Shown: positions 29,970-42,325 of the stretch, in pieces | Layout: each line of letters opens with the position of its first letter | Position numbering within the stretch: the stretch's first letter is position 1 | Origin: Acidimicrobiales bacterium | GTDB taxonomy: Bacteria > Actinomycetota > Acidimicrobiia > Acidimicrobiales > SZUA-35 | Direction: 5' to 3' | DNA: 64,000 nucleotides | Assembly: GCA_020630065.1 (NCBI GenBank) | Contig: JAHDCC010000005.1 | Location: 62,001 to 126,000, forward strand | The notes under the pieces: model-generated | What the model saw: only the letters and a program-made list of their open reading frames with translations | What the model was told of the DNA's origin: nothing | Database searches by the model: none | Made by a program: the position numbers and the translations under genes

Positions 29970-31400
29970 ATGTCTTGGTCATCTGAATTTGAGCCTGACT
30001 CTAACGACCCCACCGAACGAGGTCGTTCTATCTCATTTTCGCAACAAGAAAAACAGCTCTACCAGAGTCCACAAACCACCCAGGACATCGCTCGAAGCAC
30101 GCTGAAGCTATCCACCCCCGAAGAAACTGATAGTGGACCCTCCCCCGTCTTAGTGATCGGCACAGCGGTCCTGGCCGCGATCGCTTTGCTAGCTGGGTTG
30201 CTTTACCTTTCTGCTTCCGGCGATGATGACGATGAAACCTCAGAGCAAGCTTCGGCGTCGCAAGCCCCAGCCGGAGAATCTGCCGAGTCGTTGTCACTTA
30301 ACGAACTCGTTGGCGGGTTCGACACGACAAGAATTGCATTCGAACCTGGAACAACGCGTTTCACCCCTGCCGGGTTCGATGCGCTTAGCGCTCTTCGTTC
30401 AGCAGTTGCCAACGACCCGGAAGCAACATTGGCCTTCGACGTTCGAACCTACACCGAAGATAACCCAGCCCAGAACCATCAGCTAAGCATCAAACAAGCT
30501 GACGTCATCACCGAGTTTGTGATGGAAGGCGGAGGCGTAGATGCGTCACAGATCTCTGCTCGGGGCCTCGGTTCCGCCGATATCGGAGCCGGAGATCACC
30601 TGTCCCATTTCGTGACAATCTCTCTGCCAGAATCCAGCCGCTCTATTCAAAATTCGATAGCTGACACAAGCGGATTTGCGTTCGCAACCGATCCAGGCGA
30701 ATGGCCGACCGATGTTCCATCAGCGTCCGCGCTGCAGGCTGTGGTTTCTTTAACCGAAGAGGAAGGGGCCGAAGTCGAAATAGCTATTAGCACCTTCGAT
30801 GAAGTTTCCGAATCTGAAGCGATCGACGAAGATACGACACAACCGGAAACCGAAGAACAAGCGATTCAAACCAGCCCGGAGTTGGCCGGTTTGTCGAACA
30901 AGTTGTTTGTATTTGAAGCTAACGCTAGCCAGCTTGGCGACTCGATTCTTCAGCTGCTGACCAACAGCGGTGTCGACCCGTCTCTCATCTCAATCACGCA
31001 GAGCACCGAACCCGTTCAGGTCCCTTCTGGGGTTAACAATGTGGTTAGCGTCGTTTCAGGAGAACAGGCTCAGCTCACTCAAAGTATCGAAGAGATCGAT
31101 GATCTTAGGTTCCTTCCTGGCAGCGCAGAGCTTGATGGGAATGGCCGGAACTCGTTAGATGAAGCAGCTGCCCTTCTCGCCGACAGCCCTGAAACCCTAA
31201 TCGTGAACGTTCATACGTTTAGCCAGCAGACTGCCGAAGACAACCAGGCATTGAGCGTCGCTCAGGCGCAGGCTGCGGTGGACTACCTCGAAGATCAGGG
31301 CATTCCAGCGGCACGGCTCAGGGCGATAGGAAGCGGCAACTCGAATCAGTTCGATGAGTCCGGTCGTCTAACGCTCGCAGTTCTTACGATTGCCCAATAA
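29970..31400 (+). CDS. membrane protein with degenerate OmpA-like modules
   Basis: A 476-residue protein: about 60 polar cytoplasmic residues, one membrane helix (about 61-83), an acidic Ser/Glu linker, then at least two OmpA-like modules outside. Module 1 (about 113-230) contains FEPGTTRFTPAGFDAL and LSIKQADVITEFV; module 2 (about 375-475) contains FLPGSAELDGNGRNSL and LSVAQAQAAVDYLEDQGIPAARLRAIGSG. The peptidoglycan-contacting residues of true OmpA domains are missing: the Asp of HTD is Tyr/Phe, the Arg of LSxxRA is Gln, and the final NRRVE is absent. The fold may be kept for another ligand. Confidence 0.7.
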   Translation: MSWSSEFEPDSNDPTERGRSISFSQQEKQLYQSPQTTQDIARSTLKLSTPEETDSGPSPVLVIGTAVLAAIALLAGLLYLSASGDDDDETSEQASASQAPAGESAESLSLNELVGGFDTTRIAFEPGTTRFTPAGFDALSALRSAVANDPEATLAFDVRTYTEDNPAQNHQLSIKQADVITEFVMEGGGVDASQISARGLGSADIGAGDHLSHFVTISLPESSRSIQNSIADTSGFAFATDPGEWPTDVPSASALQAVVSLTEEEGAEVEIAISTFDEVSESEAIDEDTTQPETEEQAIQTSPELAGLSNKLFVFEANASQLGDSILQLLTNSGVDPSLISITQSTEPVQVPSGVNNVVSVVSGEQAQLTQSIEEIDDLRFLPGSAELDGNGRNSLDEAAALLADSPETLIVNVHTFSQQTAEDNQALSVAQAQAAVDYLEDQGIPAARLRAIGSGNSNQFDESGRLTLAVLTIAQ

Positions 31401-33221: not shown

Positions 33222-34586
33222 AATTTCCGCCTAAAGTTTCCATCGAGATCTAACCGGTTTGGGGTAGCCGTTGTAGCTGCTTCGTTTCTGGCTGCGTCGT
33301 GCAGCGGGTCATCGGCTGAGTCTGTGTCACCGACCGAAGTCGATAGACCAGATGACTTAGCGTTTGTGGACGACACCAACCGGCCCGCGCCGTCTACCAC
33401 CCTGGCCCCAGTTGCCTTGGGAACACGGGAAAAACCCTTTGCGAATCTTCCCAGTTGGGATGAACCGGCAGCTCTGAGAACTGATAGCGGAGTGATCGTG
33501 CCAGTGGTCGGCAAGACCGACGACGGCTATAAGATTCGCACCCCCTGTGACGCTTCGGCGAGCTATAGCGGTGGCGAACCTATCGGCCGTGCTCATGTGG
33601 TTCTCGACCCCGGTCACGGAGGCTACGAGTTTGGGGCTGTGGGGCCAGGAGGAGCGGTTGAAAAAGAACTGAACCTTACTGTTGCCCAAAAAACCAAAGA
33701 GCTACTTATTGAACAAGGCGCAACCGTTGTTCTCACTCGAGAAAACGACCACGCGGTAACCCTCGCTACCAGAGCCGCCATTTCTAACCAAGTCAAACCT
33801 GCGTTATTCGTGTCAATACACCACAACGGAGGTGCACCGGCCGGAGGTGCTAAACCGGGAACAATCGTGTTCACCAAAACCGACAGCCCAGAAGCTACTC
33901 GTTTCGGCGGATTGTTTCACGACCAGCTCACCCCATTGTTGAATGCTGCAGCCGCCGAAAAGACGGCCCGCTGGAACGAGTATGAGGCGTTGCGTATTGC
34001 CCATGAAGCTGAAGTCGATGCTTACGAACAATCGGTACAAGCACATAACGACGCCGTAGCCAGAAATCAGGAAATCGTTGCCCAAGCCCAGGCCGCTGCC
34101 ACTACAACAACACCGCCGACGACAGTTCCGGCCGATCCAGCGGTGCCGACAACGGTTCCTCCTACCACCGCTCCCCCTACGACGATCACCCTAGAGCCGG
34201 TACCAGAAATATTGCCGGTTCCTGCGCCATTCACGGTCGAACCGGTACAGCCATTTAGTTGGGCAGGTAGTGGAAACGCTGGAGTTCGATCATGGACCAA
34301 ACCAAACGGAGAAGACTACCTCGGGGTATTACGTCGTGCCGATGAGATACCGTCGGTGCTTACAGAGTTTCTCTACGTCACCAACCCTGCAGAAGAAGAA
34401 CTCCTACTCGACCCAGCTTTTATTGAGGCTGAAGCGAGGGCATTAGCCGATTCGATCGTCAGATATTTCGGCACAACCGATGAAGGTTCTGGTTTCGTTC
34501 AGGACCAGACCGGTGATCAAGATATTGGAGGTGGCGGGGCCGCCGAGGAGTGTATCGAACCCGACCTCGACAACCCAACTAGCTGA
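33222..34586 (+). CDS. N-acetylmuramoyl-L-alanine amidase lipoprotein with an intradomain insert
   Basis: Amidase_3 enzyme that cuts the bond between MurNAc and the stem peptide. From GTG 33222 it has a lipoprotein signal ending ASFLAASC. Zinc ligands are H133 (VLDPGHGG), E150 (EKELNL) and H202 (VSIHHN), and the catalytic Glu is E383 in LTEFLYVTNPAEEELL. Between SIHHN and the final motif the domain is interrupted by about 120 residues: an Ala/Glu-rich helix (about 245-295) and a Pro/Thr linker rich in TTVPP. Ordinary members have about half this spacing. It overlaps the convergent gene by eight bases. Confidence 0.9.
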   Translation, partial: NFRLKFPSRSNRFGVAVVAASFLAASCSGSSAESVSPTEVDRPDDLAFVDDTNRPAPSTTLAPVALGTREKPFANLPSWDEPAALRTDSGVIVPVVGKTDDGYKIRTPCDASASYSGGEPIGRAHVVLDPGHGGYEFGAVGPGGAVEKELNLTVAQKTKELLIEQGATVVLTRENDHAVTLATRAAISNQVKPALFVSIHHNGGAPAGGAKPGTIVFTKTDSPEATRFGGLFHDQLTPLLNAAAAEKTARWNEYEALRIAHEAEVDAYEQSVQAHNDAVARNQEIVAQAQAAATTTTPPTTVPADPAVPTTVPPTTAPPTTITLEPVPEILPVPAPFTVEPVQPFSWAGSGNAGVRSWTKPNGEDYLGVLRRADEIPSVLTEFLYVTNPAEEELLLDPAFIEAEARALADSIVRYFGTTDEGSGFVQDQTGDQDIGGGGAAEECIEPDLDNPTS

Positions 34587-36096
34587 TCGGGTCGACGGCG
34601 CTGTTACCGGCTGTTGCGACATGTTCGGTCCAGTTAACTCCGTCGTGCCAACGGTGGTCGTATCGCTCGGTAGGGTCGGCATACCAGTTAGGTTCCATGA
34701 CCTGTGCTTCTTCAGATTGTGACGTCGACTCGGCTTGTTGAGGCTGATAGGGCTCGGTTACCGCTTCGATCTGTTCGGTTGAGTGCTCGACCTTCTCAAC
34801 CGAACCACCAAACGATCCTGGCAAGAACTGGCCAGCTTGTGGATCCTCTACCGGGGCTGGGGGTTGAAACTCCTGAGTCGGTATTGGTTGGATCTCCTGG
34901 CCTTGCCCTTGTGGAATAGAAGGGTCTGGCTGCGGGAACTGTGTTTGGGGATCAAACTCCGCCGCGACGTCGGGCGTTGTGGTATCGATCGTGCCAGCTG
35001 GCTGAACAAATCCAGGATTCGGCCCAGCGAACTCTCCCGGCGAAGACCCAGGCCCAGGATTCGGCCCAGCGAACTGAGCCGGATTCGGAGCTGTGTTGAA
35101 GGGTTGTGCCGGTGGATTAGGCTGGCCCGGCTGGGCGCCGGCTGGCAGAACCGCCTTGTTGGAGGCTAACCCGTTTACCGCTTTGGCGACCCCGGGGAGT
35201 AAGGCCCGACCAGCAAAAGCTAGAAGACCCACACCAACTACAATCGTCACGAATCCCGCAAACCTGCTGTCGAAACCATCGTAGAGTTTCGACGCCGATA
35301 GCACCAGTCCTGCAGTCCCCGCCCAGGCAACACCACGTCTTCCAACTAAAGATCCGACCCAGACTGCGGCGCCACCAAGCACAAATGCTAACAAGCTGAC
35401 AAAGAAGTTCGGACCGCTGACGACGGCGGCTCCAGCGGCCGTTATCCCAACGGCAGCAAACGGTAAAGCCAGACCATGAGCGTCGCTACGATCGAGGAAC
35501 CACACGGCGCCGAGTGCTCCAGCAGCTAAAAAAACCGACAACGCTAGCGCTATATTAGAAACGCCGCCAAGCCGAGGGTCCATCGCTCGGACAAAGGTGC
35601 CTCCCGTTTCAACGTCCGACGTCAGCATCACCAGGAAGCGCCAACCCGCATACAAGACGGCACCGAGAAAGTACACGTGCCGGGTTAGAGGCAGCACAAA
35701 TAGACCTAGGCAGAAGATAGCAAACAAGACAAGGCCAAAACCTGCCTTGGGAGAGTCACCGATTCTGCTGACCGATTCTGCCAAAAACGCAATAGCGGTT
35801 GCCGCAGCGGCGAAACCGGCAGGACGTAGCGGAGCGAGTTGCGAAACGAATAGGAGAATGCAAGCAAAAGCGACGGTGAGAACCGCGGCCAGAAAGAACG
35901 GGACAGCTCCTGTTACAGGAGGCGTGTTGAGAACTCCCAAGGGTCCACCAGCGAACAATCGAGCCAAACCTAGCGGAACGAGGACGCCACCGGCCCCCAT
36001 CACGATGGTGTCGAGCGATATCTCGGCCCGACTATTAGGGACTTGTAACCACCCCAACAAACCGCCAATCGGATTGTTTTTCTGAGCTGTAACCAT
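34579..36096 (-). CDS. polytopic membrane protein with C-terminal DUF2510 domain
   Basis: About 505 residues from ATG 36096 (MVTAQKNN). The first 320 residues hold about nine to ten hydrophobic helices, then a Pro/Gln-rich linker with repeated (Q/E)FAGPNPG, and a C-terminal DUF2510 module (PNWYADPTERYDHRWHDGVNWTEH), a small Trp-rich domain common in actinobacterial membrane proteins. The function is unknown. An upstream ATG at 36144 would add 16 residues with no family support. Confidence 0.75.
   Translation of the reverse strand: MVTAQKNNPIGGLLGWLQVPNSRAEISLDTIVMGAGGVLVPLGLARLFAGGPLGVLNTPPVTGAVPFFLAAVLTVAFACILLFVSQLAPLRPAGFAAAATAIAFLAESVSRIGDSPKAGFGLVLFAIFCLGLFVLPLTRHVYFLGAVLYAGWRFLVMLTSDVETGGTFVRAMDPRLGGVSNIALALSVFLAAGALGAVWFLDRSDAHGLALPFAAVGITAAGAAVVSGPNFFVSLLAFVLGGAAVWVGSLVGRRGVAWAGTAGLVLSASKLYDGFDSRFAGFVTIVVGVGLLAFAGRALLPGVAKAVNGLASNKAVLPAGAQPGQPNPPAQPFNTAPNPAQFAGPNPGPGSSPGEFAGPNPGFVQPAGTIDTTTPDVAAEFDPQTQFPQPDPSIPQGQGQEIQPIPTQEFQPPAPVEDPQAGQFLPGSFGGSVEKVEHSTEQIEAVTEPYQPQQAESTSQSEEAQVMEPNWYADPTERYDHRWHDGVNWTEHVATAGNSAVDPIS
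35012..35075 (-). repeat. 22-bp direct repeat inside the DUF2510-protein linker
   Basis: A perfect 22-base direct repeat at 35012-35033 and 35054-35075, 42 bases apart and in frame, encodes the repeated (Q/E)FAGPNPG of the linker. It looks like a recent internal duplication. Confidence 0.8.
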
Positions 36097-36202
36097 TGTC
36101 AGTCTCCACTGGTCCGTCCATAACACCATACCCAAACACGCCACTTTGCGGCTTTAGCGGTACAAAACCGCTGGCCACAAGGCTACGTACACAAGAAGCA
36201 TT

Positions 36203-36226
36203 TAGCTGCTGCAAGCGCAGCAACTA
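36203..36226 (-). terminator. hairpin downstream of mscS
   Basis: TAGCTGCTGC (36203-36212) pairs with GCAGCAACTA (36217-36226), one mismatch, loop AAGC, 26 bases beyond the MscS stop on the minus strand. The following sequence is not strongly U-rich, so this is a weak or factor-assisted terminator candidate. Confidence 0.45.
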
Positions 36227-36251: not shown

Positions 36252-37307
36252 CTATTGTGGACTATCTTTTATCGATGGTTTTTCGTTCGTATCGCTATAT
36301 GGAGACCCGTGTCTTGGTTCGACGGTTCGAACTTCTGGCCTGGCGTGGACCGGTGTAGATTCGTCTGAACGTATCCACACTGTTCGCTGTGGGTATGGCA
36401 TTTCGATTTCGGCTTCATCGAAGGCCTCCTTTATCCGCAGGCGCAGCTCCCGAGCAATAACCCATTGTTCGGCCGGATCGGTCTTGACAACTAAACGGAT
36501 CGAAACCCCATCGGTGCCCAATCGTTCTATTCCCCACACGTCTGGAGGATCAATAATGTCACCCTCCGTGAACGTTTCGTCCTGCCACAGGTCGTCGGCA
36601 ACTCGTTGGATAATCCCCTCGGCCCGCCGAAGGTCGGTTTCATAGGCAACATCTATGTCTAGAACTGCACGAGACCATAGTTGTGATTTGTTTGCTACCC
36701 GTCGAATTTCCGAATTGGAAACGAACCATAAGGTACCTTCGACATCACGCAGTGTGACCATACGCAGACTGACCCGTTCGACTTCTCCGCTAACCTCACC
36801 GACGTCTATTACGTCGCCAACCCCAAACTGATCTTCGACCAGCATAAAAAAGCCGGCTAGAAAGTCAGCGACGATCTTTTGGGCGCCGAAACCGAGGGCT
36901 ACCCCGAGTACGCTGGCGCCCGCTAGAAGAGGCGCCAATGAGATACCAAATTCGTCTAGAACCATCAGAATGACAACAAACGCCAGCACGAACCGACTAA
37001 ACGAGGCTAAAACGCTCGCCATAGTGTCGACTCGTAGTTGTGCTCGTTCTTCTGCCGCTGTGTTGGCGTGCCGCTTTGAACGCCCATTGTGTTTTCTGAG
37101 GATGCGGCGCCCTTTTCTGATTATGTAGCTCTGGATTAGTCGATCCAGCAAAAAGGCGACAACAAGTATCACGAAGACGCGAAACGGCCACGTACCGACG
37201 ATCTTTGAGACGTTTGTGATGCTCTCAGAACCGGTGACGTCAAACACGGTGGCGCAAAGACTGTCTCCATCGTCGCAGGGAGACTCTACGGAAAATCTGT
37301 TTATCAC
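36252..37307 (-). CDS. MscS-family small-conductance mechanosensitive channel
   Basis: A 351-residue protein. An N-terminal outside segment and helix (about 40-62) precede a second hydrophobic helix (about 105-122) and the pore helix LLAGASVLGVALGFGAQKIVADFLAGFFMLVEDQFGVGDVI, the MscS signature with Gly/Ala packing. The beta domain follows (VSGEVERVSLRMVTLRDVEGTLWFVSNSEIRRVAN). The C-terminal 40 residues are polar. It releases solutes during osmotic downshift. The start of the gene lies 15 bases from the end of the upstream envelope protein, so the two are probably co-transcribed. Confidence 0.93.
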   Translation of the reverse strand: MINRFSVESPCDDGDSLCATVFDVTGSESITNVSKIVGTWPFRVFVILVVAFLLDRLIQSYIIRKGRRILRKHNGRSKRHANTAAEERAQLRVDTMASVLASFSRFVLAFVVILMVLDEFGISLAPLLAGASVLGVALGFGAQKIVADFLAGFFMLVEDQFGVGDVIDVGEVSGEVERVSLRMVTLRDVEGTLWFVSNSEIRRVANKSQLWSRAVLDIDVAYETDLRRAEGIIQRVADDLWQDETFTEGDIIDPPDVWGIERLGTDGVSIRLVVKTDPAEQWVIARELRLRIKEAFDEAEIEMPYPQRTVWIRSDESTPVHARPEVRTVEPRHGSPYSDTNEKPSIKDSPQ

Positions 37308-37322
37308 TGGTTCGTTAGGATA

Positions 37323-39602
37323 CTAATTTCCTGGTGAAAGAATTTCTTCACACGAAATATCTTCTCTTGGGATTTCTTCGAGATCCGAGAATGGAACCGA
37401 TTTCTTGCTCGCACCCAGCGACTGCAGACTATCAGCACACGATTCGGGGATAAACGACTTAGATGAAACTTCACTGTCGACCCACCAGTAGAAGCCTTGA
37501 CTTTCGAGGATCTCTCCTTCGGGAGCGTCCTCGCCGGAGAAAACGTACATCGCTGAAAGACCCATAATTGACAGGCCGACCAATCCAACTACAATCGTGG
37601 CCGCTTTAGAACGCAGAAAATCGACACCCGGGAACCGTCCACCTTCATCTGGATCTTCGTAGTCGTCATAGTTTCCCTCGTCATAGCCGTCGTCGTAGTT
37701 GTCGTATTGACGTTCGTTGGCTGGCCGTCTTCGCTGTGGTGGGCGTTCTTGACGACCTCGTGGTGTACGTGCAGGCCGAGCTGATGGGCGTGGTTGACGC
37801 CCGTCTGCTAGATAATCGTCTTCGTATTCGTCCGCCTCGTCTTGATTGCCACGCCGTTGGATCGGGGCACGACGAGGTGGTGTTGGTTGCACCCGTCTGG
37901 AACTTCCTGAAGGCTGGACCCGACTTGATGAGCCTGAACCAACATCATAAGCCGAACCGTTTGATAGCGGACCCTGTCTGGAAGGCCTATTGTCCTGTGG
38001 GGCTCTAAGCTGTCTGGTTACACCCGAAGCAGCTGGGCCTGGACGACGTACATCTACTGCGTCGATCTCTTCACTGGGGTCGAAGAAACCGAGTGGGTCA
38101 TCAAGATACTCATCAAACGGATCGATTTCCTCATTCGGGTCGACGCCCAACGACCGATTCTGTGGTGTTTCGAATCGAGGCGACTCTGGTTGACGTGGTT
38201 CGAACTGAGGCGGAGCTGGAAATGGCGCTCCCCGTCGACTATCAGACACTGCTGGCTGAGATCCGTTTGACCGAGACCCTCTTGGCTGGGTGGCGTCGGG
38301 GTTGACGGACTCTCTTGGTGCTGGCGCAGGCGGGAAGTCTACCGGAGCGTCCATTCGAGTTGGCCCAAAGTTCGGGCGGTCGACTATCCGTGGTGGGGCT
38401 GGATCATGGTTGTTGTTGAGGTTTGGAGGCGGCGGTGCCGGTTTGTAGCCGTTTGTTAACTTCGGTGGAGGCGGGTTTGGTAATGACCTTGGTTCTTCCG
38501 CTGCTTCTGCTCGGCTAGCCAAATTTGCGATATCTGGCAGATCGATCGGACCAGTATTCTCGCCAACCGATGCGACTCCTGGTCCTGCCAAGCCACGTGC
38601 TCCCAGATCTGAAATCGCGCGCACGTCTATCTCACCGGTGTGTTCGACATGACCGGGTTCTGGTTTAACTTCAGGAGTTTGTGGACGAAACTTCGGAGGT
38701 GGGATATCGAGGTGTCCTGAACCGTTTCGAAGCGGCGGATCGATAGGCGAAGACGGCGGTGTTCCGTTGTTCTCAGGTTGTGAACCGTTAGCCCGATGAT
38801 TCGGCGCAGCTACTGCCTGGTCTCGCACAAAAAAAGCTGGACGACGTTGCGAGGATCGCGAATCGGCTTTAAATCGGTACGCGCCAGGGCTGACTTCATT
38901 CCCGTCGACTTCAATCGCTTCGTAAACCCGGTCTGGCACCTCAATTCGCTCACTCGAACGTTCGGAACCGGCGTCAGCGGGAACTGACCGGCCATCCTCA
39001 TCTGGGTTGATAACGTCACCTTCGCCTGTGTGAGCGTTGACTTCGATTATCGTCTCATCGCGATGTTCGGGATCTAATTTTCTGACCGGCGCCTTCTGAC
39101 GAGGTTCCGGGAACGGACGCTGTGGGGGCGGCGGTCGATCTGGAATCGAGGTGCGTTGGCCGTTCTCCGGCGGGCCTGCAGCCTCCATCGACTCGTCGAG
39201 CATCTGTTGGGCCACCTCAGTCGAAGAAGACTCCTCCAACAATGACGGCAACGAATCATATTGTGACGTGTGGATTCGTTCGACGCGAACGGTCTCAGAG
39301 CGTTCGATTCGAACCGCGTCTGACTGTTCATCGTAAACCGTCTCGGTTCGTTCGATCTTTACGGTTTCAGACTGTCCACCACCGTCGATACCGGCACGCT
39401 CAACCGTCACTTTTTCGGACCGCTCTACCCGAACACCATCTACCCGTTCGACAGGAATTAGTCGGTGACGTGGCGGTTCGAGCCTCGACAACGAGGCCTC
39501 AAGATCAAACGCCGGATTTGGAGGATCGGCAGAGCCAACAGGTCGGCTGCCATGCACCGGCCCGATATCTACGTTTTCATTCTCTGAAGTTTCACTACTC
39601 AT
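37323..39602 (-). CDS. long disordered protein with one membrane helix near the C-terminus
   Basis: I do not recognise this 759-residue protein. Residues about 48-111 carry imperfect octad repeats of the type V-x-[VI]-E-R-[ST]-E-[TK] (VRVERSEK, VKIERTET, VRIERSET). Most of 120-665 is low-complexity, rich in Pro, Asn, Arg and acidic residues, with PPPP runs and an Arg/Asp/Tyr-rich patch before the membrane. One helix (about 666-685) is followed by a 65-residue tail with two Cys, presumably outside. The tail is conserved-looking rather than disordered. ATG 39602 has GGAGAG upstream. It precedes mscS by 15 bases. A scaffold for envelope or division proteins is one guess. Confidence 0.7.
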   Translation of the reverse strand: MSSETSENENVDIGPVHGSRPVGSADPPNPAFDLEASLSRLEPPRHRLIPVERVDGVRVERSEKVTVERAGIDGGGQSETVKIERTETVYDEQSDAVRIERSETVRVERIHTSQYDSLPSLLEESSSTEVAQQMLDESMEAAGPPENGQRTSIPDRPPPPQRPFPEPRQKAPVRKLDPEHRDETIIEVNAHTGEGDVINPDEDGRSVPADAGSERSSERIEVPDRVYEAIEVDGNEVSPGAYRFKADSRSSQRRPAFFVRDQAVAAPNHRANGSQPENNGTPPSSPIDPPLRNGSGHLDIPPPKFRPQTPEVKPEPGHVEHTGEIDVRAISDLGARGLAGPGVASVGENTGPIDLPDIANLASRAEAAEEPRSLPNPPPPKLTNGYKPAPPPPNLNNNHDPAPPRIVDRPNFGPTRMDAPVDFPPAPAPRESVNPDATQPRGSRSNGSQPAVSDSRRGAPFPAPPQFEPRQPESPRFETPQNRSLGVDPNEEIDPFDEYLDDPLGFFDPSEEIDAVDVRRPGPAASGVTRQLRAPQDNRPSRQGPLSNGSAYDVGSGSSSRVQPSGSSRRVQPTPPRRAPIQRRGNQDEADEYEDDYLADGRQPRPSARPARTPRGRQERPPQRRRPANERQYDNYDDGYDEGNYDDYEDPDEGGRFPGVDFLRSKAATIVVGLVGLSIMGLSAMYVFSGEDAPEGEILESQGFYWWVDSEVSSKSFIPESCADSLQSLGASKKSVPFSDLEEIPREDISCEEILSPGN

Positions 39603-39629
39603 GCCGGTAGATCTCTCCAGTGCCGTCAC

Positions 39630-40480: not shown

Positions 40481-42325
40481 TTGAGGAATAACCGGGAGGT
40501 TCGGTCTGCGTTAGCTCTTTTTCCAGGTGTTGCTGGTCGGAGTTGGCACAATTTCGAAAATCCAGTTGACCAAATCATCGCGTGGGAACTGTCTGATGTG
40601 ATTCCTGCGCTGAACAGGGCTGAGGAAGCGACCAACGACGGATACTGGGTTGTCGGGATGGTTGCCTACGACGCTGCGCCCGCGTTTGATCAGGCTCTCC
40701 ACAGCCATCGAAACCCTACTGTCCCCCTCATCTCATTTGGGGTCTTTGAACAGCCTTCGCTAGTCAAAGTACCGACGGGCGGCCTGTATCAAATAACCGC
40801 TTGGGAAGCCAGCCAGTCCCAAGCCGATTTCGAACGATCGGTGATGCGGATCAAGGCTCCGATCGAGCGGGGCGACACGTATCAGGTCAACCACACGATG
40901 CGGCTGCGAGCCGGTTTTAGTGGCGACCCGCGCGGCCTGTTCGCTCGCATGGTCAGGGCCCAACAAGCGAACCACTCGGTCTATGTTGATCTCGGTGATG
41001 CCGCTATTTGTTCAGCATCGCCCGAACTTCTCTTCTACCGAAACGGCGACAGTATCACGACGCGACCCATGAAGGGTACCCGTCCCCGCGACCCGGAACG
41101 TTCAGCAGATATTGCCCGTTCGAACGAACTCACCACCAGTGAAAAAGATCGGGCCGAAAACACGATGATCGTCGATATGGCCCGGAACGATTTGGGCCGA
41201 ATCGCCATCGTGGGCAGCGTCGATGTTCCGTTACTACATCAGGTTGAGACATACCCGACACTTCATCAGATGACGTCGACGGTGACCGCACGAACCAAAG
41301 CCGGCCTCGCAGACACGTTCAGGGCACTATTTCCAGCAGCATCAATTACCGGAGCCCCGAAGTTCTCGACGTCTCGACTGATCAAAACTTTCGAACCTTC
41401 CCCTCGGGGCATCTACACCGGGGCGGTTGGGGTAATAAGCCCTCACGGCCGCACCGAATTTAACGTGGCGATACGGACAGCTTGGGTTGACCGATCCACA
41501 TCAACCGCAGAGTACGGGGTTGGATGCGGTATCGTCTGGGACTCCGACCCCACCGCTGAGTGGCATGAAGCTCAGCAAAAAACAGCTGTGCTGCAACGCT
41601 GCCAAACCAACTTTCGTCTCCTTGAGACTATGCGTTGGACACCCGAGAATGGGATAACCCGGCTCTCTTCACATATCAGTAGGCTGCAAACCACCGCCGA
41701 TCATTTCGGTTTCGAATGCGACAGCCAAGAAATGCTCAGCAAACTAGAGAGCATCACGGGGACATCGGACCTTCGGGTACGGCTCACCGTCGATGAGTTT
41801 GGGTCTCCCCAAATCGAACTTTCCCCTCTGGAGCCACTAGATAGCCTAAACACCAGCGACCACATTCCTGAGGCTAGTTCTACTCCCCTTCCCGTCGTTG
41901 GCTTGGATTCGCTTCCCGTCGACCGGGCCAACGAATTTCTTTACCACAAAACCACTGACCGGGCCCGCTATGCCGACGCTCGTGCCCGCCAACGTGAACG
42001 TTTAGGCCTGGCCGAGGACTCAAACCTTGACGTACTTTTGTGGAACGATCGGGGCGAGTTAACAGAATCCACGATCGGCAACCTCGTGTTCGAAATTGAC
42101 GGCCAACTCTACACCCCACCAATTCGATCAGGCCTGCTTCCCGGAACATTTCGACGTGACCTTTTGGACCGTAATTTACTTACCGAGTCACCGATAACGA
42201 TCAACCTTGCTAAACGGGCAAACCGAGTCTTTGTTATAAACAGTGTTAGAGGCTGGACCGAGGTATCCATCGATTTTTCGTTTGTACCCGACGATCTTGT
42301 TCGCCAGCACCCCCATGAGAGCTAA
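40481..42325 (+). CDS. pabBC: fused aminodeoxychorismate synthase component I and lyase (PabB-PabC)
   Basis: 614 residues. The first 380 are a chorismate-binding PabB domain (ELLFYRNGDSITTRPMKGTRPRD, DRAENTMIVDMARNDLGRIA, ASITGAPKFSTSRLIKTFEPSPRGIYTGAVG). The rest is a class IV PLP domain: LLETMRWTPENGITRLSSHISRL, FLYHKTTDRARYADARA with the PLP Lys, and WNDRGELTESTIGNLVFEIDG. Together they turn chorismate plus ammonia into p-aminobenzoate for folate. The TTG start follows GGAG. The glutamine amidotransferase pabA is not in the window. Confidence 0.93.
   Translation: MRNNREVRSALALFPGVAGRSWHNFENPVDQIIAWELSDVIPALNRAEEATNDGYWVVGMVAYDAAPAFDQALHSHRNPTVPLISFGVFEQPSLVKVPTGGLYQITAWEASQSQADFERSVMRIKAPIERGDTYQVNHTMRLRAGFSGDPRGLFARMVRAQQANHSVYVDLGDAAICSASPELLFYRNGDSITTRPMKGTRPRDPERSADIARSNELTTSEKDRAENTMIVDMARNDLGRIAIVGSVDVPLLHQVETYPTLHQMTSTVTARTKAGLADTFRALFPAASITGAPKFSTSRLIKTFEPSPRGIYTGAVGVISPHGRTEFNVAIRTAWVDRSTSTAEYGVGCGIVWDSDPTAEWHEAQQKTAVLQRCQTNFRLLETMRWTPENGITRLSSHISRLQTTADHFGFECDSQEMLSKLESITGTSDLRVRLTVDEFGSPQIELSPLEPLDSLNTSDHIPEASSTPLPVVGLDSLPVDRANEFLYHKTTDRARYADARARQRERLGLAEDSNLDVLLWNDRGELTESTIGNLVFEIDGQLYTPPIRSGLLPGTFRRDLLDRNLLTESPITINLAKRANRVFVINSVRGWTEVSIDFSFVPDDLVRQHPHES

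Follow-up and report, generated by a model that had tools for sequence, protein, structure and literature searches.

The streptococcal division-site protein MapZ binds FtsZ through a disordered cytoplasmic arm (PMC7055233) and peptidoglycan through its extracellular end (PMC4931243). The RsgI anti-sigma factors of Clostridium thermocellum carry carbohydrate-binding modules or glycosidase domains as their C-terminal sensors (PMC12203970). The repeat of EccB, a component of type VII secretion, is a four-strand, two-helix domain located outside a single helix; a putative role with peptidoglycan has been suggested, and a resemblance between the repeats and a cell-wall-binding protein of a phage has been pointed out (PMC4769845).

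The protein described here, P0001, is a 759-amino-acid bitopic disordered protein of an Acidimicrobiales bacterium (assembly GCA_020630065.1), encoded within a 64,000-nucleotide stretch of contig JAHDCC010000005.1 that was analyzed as a whole and is referred to below as the window. To our knowledge, cell-envelope organization in the Acidimicrobiales has been little studied, and the group is represented mostly by environmental assemblies. The coding sequence occupies window positions 37323 to 39602 on the minus strand, with an ATG at 39602 and the stop codon at 37325 to 37323, and a ribosome-binding-like GGAGAG (39613 to 39618, minus strand) lies 10 nucleotides before the ATG. The GC contents at codon positions 1, 2, and 3 were 0.68, 0.51, and 0.47, with position 1 the highest, as in the neighboring genes. 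This composition is coding-like, and P0001 is a real gene. A near-perfect sigma-70-like site (TTGACA, 16 nucleotides, TACAAT) is present on the plus strand at 37568 to 37595, antisense to the codons of the tail and helix, and such sites were no commoner in the region than in shuffled sequences. The Rfam scan of the window returned no match. Elsewhere in the window, a plus-strand frame at 40481 to 42325 fuses a chorismate-binding (PabB-like) domain with a class IV aminotransferase (PabC-like) domain.

The architecture of P0001, approximately 665 disordered cytoplasmic residues followed by one membrane helix and an outer tail with two cysteines, is well supported. Near the N terminus, residues 49 to 112 (39267 to 39458, minus strand) form a block of eight 8-mers, detected by autocorrelation and by shuffling of a core motif, which read in order IPVERVDG, VRVERSEK, VTVERAGI, DGGGQSET, VKIERTET, VYDEQSDA, VRIERSET, and VRVERIHT. 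The strict pattern V-x-[VI]-E-R-[ST]-E-[TK] occurs three times (residues 57, 81, and 97) and the core [VI]-x-[VI]-E-R six times (residues 49, 57, 65, 81, 97, and 105). Because all core spacings are multiples of 8, the block can be read as eight in-register octads, two of which (at residues 73 and 89) are degenerate. When the entire sequence of P0001 was shuffled 20,000 times, no shuffle reached six cores (maximum, 2), and the maximum was 3 when the octad block alone was shuffled. The autocorrelation z scores at lags of 8, 16, 24, and 32 were 6.2, 6.5, 4.7, and 3.3. The octad repeat proposed in the first-pass annotation is real; the case for it is weaker than proposed in that only three units fit the strict pattern, and stronger in that all eight units keep a perfect register. 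No tandem repeat was detectable in the DNA, so it is in the protein sequence that the octad register can be seen.

Residues 113 to 595 (37818 to 39266, minus strand) constitute a proline-rich, low-complexity cytoplasmic arm with 81 prolines. These residues fall on the predicted disordered side of the charge-hydropathy line, with the sole exception of a 40-residue block (residues 321 to 360) that bears a pair of T-G-x-I-D-[LV]-x2-I-x2-L-x2-R motifs. The first copy, TGEIDVRAISDLGAR, spans residues 322 to 336 (38595 to 38639, minus strand), and the second, TGPIDLPDIANLASR, spans residues 350 to 364 (38511 to 38555, minus strand). Matches to this region across 129 genomes (E values of 6e-4 to 0.05) were rejected; the ones inspected lack a pair of TGxID motifs and resemble chance similarity to frames that are GC-rich or unrelated. 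No FtsZ-binding or other recognizable peptide was identified in the arm. Beside the membrane, residues 583 to 660 (37623 to 37856, minus strand) form a patch rich in Arg, Tyr, Asp, and Glu, and the single transmembrane helix follows at residues 668 to 688 (37539 to 37601, minus strand; hydropathy of about 2.0). The helix is preceded by DFLRSKA and followed by SGEDAPEGE. With Arg and Lys before the helix and acidic residues after it, the N terminus is predicted to be inside and the C terminus outside. The proline-rich stretches, the Arg/Tyr/Asp patch, the membrane helix, and the outer tail had all been noted previously, and each is present.

The outer tail comprises the last 71 residues (689 to 759; 37326 to 37538, minus strand). 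The only cysteines in P0001 (Cys722 and Cys751) and its only tryptophans (Trp706 and Trp707) lie within this tail. In our judgement the tail is very probably a divergent copy of an extracellular two-cysteine module of approximately 65 residues. Searching the tail alone against 397 genomes from the order gave three hits within a single genome (G050), at E values of 1.7e-5, 8.9e-5, and 2.1e-4. The other tail matches (in genomes G155, G182, G212, and G310) mostly matched the hydrophobic helix and were rejected, and a pattern derived from the tail gave 164 matches in genome contigs, none of which was confirmed. A profile built from eight other members of the module family scored the tail at 24.3 bits, compared with at most 9.5 bits in 20,000 shuffled tails, and a profile built from G050 members only scored it at 24.1 bits (best shuffled tail, 12.2). 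With a profile of 26 other members the tail scored 18.5 bits, compared with at most 10.3 in 20,000 shuffled tails and with 18.0 bits for one 54-residue frame selected from 396 genomes. Other pieces of P0001 gave matches at E values down to 6e-4 that were due to chance or unconvincing on inspection. In view of such stray matches, a lone E value near 1e-3 would be insufficient for assigning the tail. A profile from four remote members alone did not find the tail, which indicates that it is mainly copies of the G050 type that connect the tail to the family. When a tail-free, 17-member profile was searched against the entire genome of the organism, the tail ranked fourth (E = 0.001), directly behind three copies in secreted proteins, with the next place at 0.06, in a test that is not wholly independent because the profile seeds were originally reached from the tail.

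The assignment also rests on the agreement and uniqueness of the cysteines, the extracytoplasmic C-terminal position predicted from the single helix and its charge asymmetry, and the predicted fold. The tail keeps the invariant cysteine pair and the glycine between them (C33, G41, and C62 of the family alignment), and its identity to other copies was 12 to 29% in alignments. It lacks the core [DN]G-x-[RK]-x-W that precedes the first cysteine, having VDSEVSSKSFIPESC where others have DGTRQWISxxC. As this core also varies in a few further members (for example, at locus L134), it is not a defining invariant, and the tail was filed as a divergent member. Lacking the core, the tail may have lost the binding of other members.

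The consensus of the module is GWIL.SDGTRQWIS..CR.QL..AG..., and it often occurs in tandem in secreted proteins of the order. None of the copies corresponded to a named family in Pfam or NCBIfam. In G050, the module occurs as tandem copies in a pair of large proteins whose N termini are signal-like and which also contain threonine-rich linkers and DUF4214 domains. An iterated profile detected two copies in an RTX-repeat-containing M23 peptidase (genome G065), several copies each in G134 and G018, one copy in a GH5 cellulase protein (G005), and one pair of copies in an apiosidase-like protein. The loci include L076:6063-9377, L077:4777-7527, L093:3328-5247, L134:1165-3138, and L149:1294-2913, as well as L132, L133, L137, L141, and L143. 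A search of plasmids with a secreted module copy found no match. The genome that encodes P0001 has three other copies on contig C2, at the C-terminal ends of proteins encoded by neighboring secreted genes, one in a DUF1996 protein (L099:8290-9426) and two in an Sde182-like protein (L099:9556-11469) of the cellulose-binding, nucleoside-hydrolase-like kind. The same locus also encodes an OmpA-like, lipoprotein-type protein (L099:6610-7338, plus strand) in which x-P-D-[FI] repeats (PDFTAPDFEVPDFNAPDFTVPDI) follow one another ahead of the OmpA-like part, and a second OmpA-family protein is encoded inside the window at 29970 to 31400.

Therefore, the initial statement that P0001 matches no family holds for the whole protein, which had no match in Pfam, NCBIfam, or PHROGs, but not for its tail, which belongs to a recurrent, unnamed extracellular module. 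The module sits singly or in tandem behind proline/threonine-rich linkers, an arrangement usual of binding or anchoring modules, which suggests a function of this kind. It would qualify for description as a domain family in its own right and is a usable by-product of the analysis, being short, recognizable by its cysteine pair, present on several polysaccharide enzymes, and open to direct ligand tests with recombinant domains.

AlphaFold modeled the tail with a pLDDT of 86.6 and a pTM of 0.70 and a secreted relative with a pLDDT of 95.2. The elements follow one another in the same sequence in both models (three strands, a helix, a strand, and two helices), an agreement that is not fully independent because the alignments behind the two models overlap. 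The best PDB matches of the tail model in Foldseek were EccB repeats, at values that are not significant (E = 0.14; probability, 0.92; TM score, 0.58), and the module profile reached EccB5 only at an E value of 1.3. EccB was absent from the best 50 PDB matches of the secreted relative. Because the better-modeled relative does not reproduce the match, EccB was kept as a lead rather than as a classification. MapZ was absent from the best 50 PDB matches of the tail model.

A module that is found on secreted proteins, several of them acting on polysaccharides, and that is joined here to a membrane helix and a disordered arm is most simply read as part of a tether. We tentatively infer that P0001 is a lineage-specific, N-in bitopic envelope tether. 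The outer module, probably stapled by a disulfide between Cys722 and Cys751, would dock to a glycan, either in the envelope of the cell itself or in its surroundings, and so fix P0001 in place, and the flexible arm might recruit or concentrate cytoplasmic partners via the octads, the TGxID pair, and the Arg/Tyr/Asp patch. The downstream channel gene considered below may share the expression of P0001, but this reading does not require its product to be a dedicated partner.

Alternatively, P0001 could be a transmembrane sensor, with the outer module detecting a polysaccharide outside the cell and the arm relaying the signal, for example through regulated proteolysis, as in RsgI. The membrane layout is the same as that of RsgI (PMC12203970), and the module is common to secreted polysaccharide-active enzymes, with two carriers in the same genome. 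However, Pfam and NCBIfam searches detected neither the N-terminal anti-sigma domain of RsgI nor any other RsgI, anti-sigma, or signaling domain in the arm, there is no sigma factor gene among the annotated immediate neighbors, and the cytoplasmic domain of RsgI is short and folded, whereas P0001 has 665 disordered residues. It thus seems improbable that P0001 relays signals in this manner.

Another possibility is that P0001 anchors a mechanosensitive channel to the envelope, or gathers it, and thereby tunes the sensing of turgor. An mscS-family gene (36252 to 37307, minus strand; Pfam MS_channel_1st, MS_channel_2nd, and MS_channel_3rd) begins 15 bp downstream of P0001 on the same strand. No terminator-like site was found on the minus strand within the 15-bp gap, and a terminator-like hairpin (36203 to 36226, minus strand) follows mscS and would close a P0001-mscS unit ahead of a DUF2510 gene, as detected by a consensus scan that found 12 sites in the region compared with 5.4 expected by chance. 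The shared strand, the short gap without a terminator, and the hairpin after mscS make cotranscription of the two genes plausible. The DUF2510 gene, next after mscS (34579 to 36144, minus strand), encodes 521 amino acids; its product begins with several membrane helices, continues with a stretch rich in Pro and Gln, and has DUF2510 at its C terminus, so that this gene run encodes two membrane proteins of low complexity.

A dedicated partnership between P0001 and MscS is not indicated. The mscS gene was present in 39 of the 41 genomes searched, and no relative of P0001 was found in the 40 other genomes or beside mscS in the neighborhoods that were read. The closest MscS relatives (55 to 62% identity) had no P0001-like neighbor and no such protein in their genomes, and no P0001 counterpart was found in the flanks of another 17 MscS loci taken from named records, the closest of which, from Acidimicrobiia and Acidimicrobiales assemblies, were 53 to 56% identical. 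A shared promoter alone could explain the arrangement, and a role as channel partner is doubtful.

Within the genomes searched, P0001 is an orphan. Its full-length sequence had no relative in 40 related genomes and no match in viral contigs or phages, and neither the octads nor the remainder of the disordered arm had a detectable relative. Separate searches with the octads and the outer tail, as the first-pass annotation had proposed, gave different outcomes. The tail was shared, though with otherwise unrelated secreted proteins, whereas the octads were not found elsewhere; a search with the octad block over 248 genomes of the order gave only weak matches, without octads on inspection. Among the module copies that were read, the tail of P0001 is the only one joined via a membrane helix to a long cytoplasmic arm. 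In the absence of a full-length relative there is no conservation to show which parts of the protein matter. As the relatives returned include no congener, conservation of P0001 within its genus, among members not yet sampled, is still possible.

P0001 might also be a young or fast-drifting gene, assembled from a copied module, a helix, and low-complexity sequence that has expanded, in which case selection would have acted little on any function of the arm. This would agree with the lack of relatives in the 40 genomes and with the finding of no counterpart through the tail (397 genomes) or the octads (248 genomes). However, the 759-codon frame stays open with a coding-like composition, and the octads keep an exact register in the protein in the absence of a repeat in the DNA, and we regard this explanation as unlikely. 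Octads, Arg/Tyr/Asp patches, and low-complexity arms are of a type able to condense, and P0001 has all three, but composition alone is a poor predictor, and it seems improbable that P0001 organizes a condensate or membrane domain through phase separation of a repetitive, Arg/Tyr-rich arm at the membrane.

The tether reading can be extended to a more speculative proposal that we consider somewhat unlikely, namely, that P0001 is the first example of a type of transmembrane connector in the Acidimicrobiales, in which a putative and previously undescribed glycan-binding module, elsewhere employed by secreted enzymes, has been captured by a long disordered arm with octads, such that the position of an envelope or extracellular polysaccharide might organize, or signal to, components of the cell interior.

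Comparison with the described systems places these proposals in context. The model of the P0001 tail resembles the EccB repeat and, like it, lies outside a single helix, but the match (E = 0.14) is not significant and the better model, that of the relative, has no EccB match. P0001 shares with RsgI a single helix followed by a C-terminal outer module of the carbohydrate-active-enzyme kind; it differs in that no RsgI cytoplasmic or periplasmic domain was detected and its arm is disordered, and we do not assign it to the RsgI family. The resemblance to MapZ is closest in layout, as both are N-in bitopic proteins with a disordered N-terminal arm, one helix, and an extracellular C-terminal end. 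The arm of P0001 is far longer and bears the octad block, and it has one small outer module compared with the two subdomains of MapZ. Searches of Pfam and NCBIfam gave no match between P0001 and the MapZ family, and the suggestion that P0001 may work like MapZ concerns layout only, with no claim of sequence relation or membership. To the two-cysteine module family, the tail aligns along its length, and it is C-terminal, like several members. However, those members are parts of secreted proteins, whereas the tail of P0001, without the DG.R.W core, is carried on a helix and a long cytoplasmic arm. If the proposed reading is correct, a lineage of the Acidimicrobiales would have built its own connector, similar to MapZ or RsgI, from a module of secreted enzymes and a disordered cytoplasmic arm.
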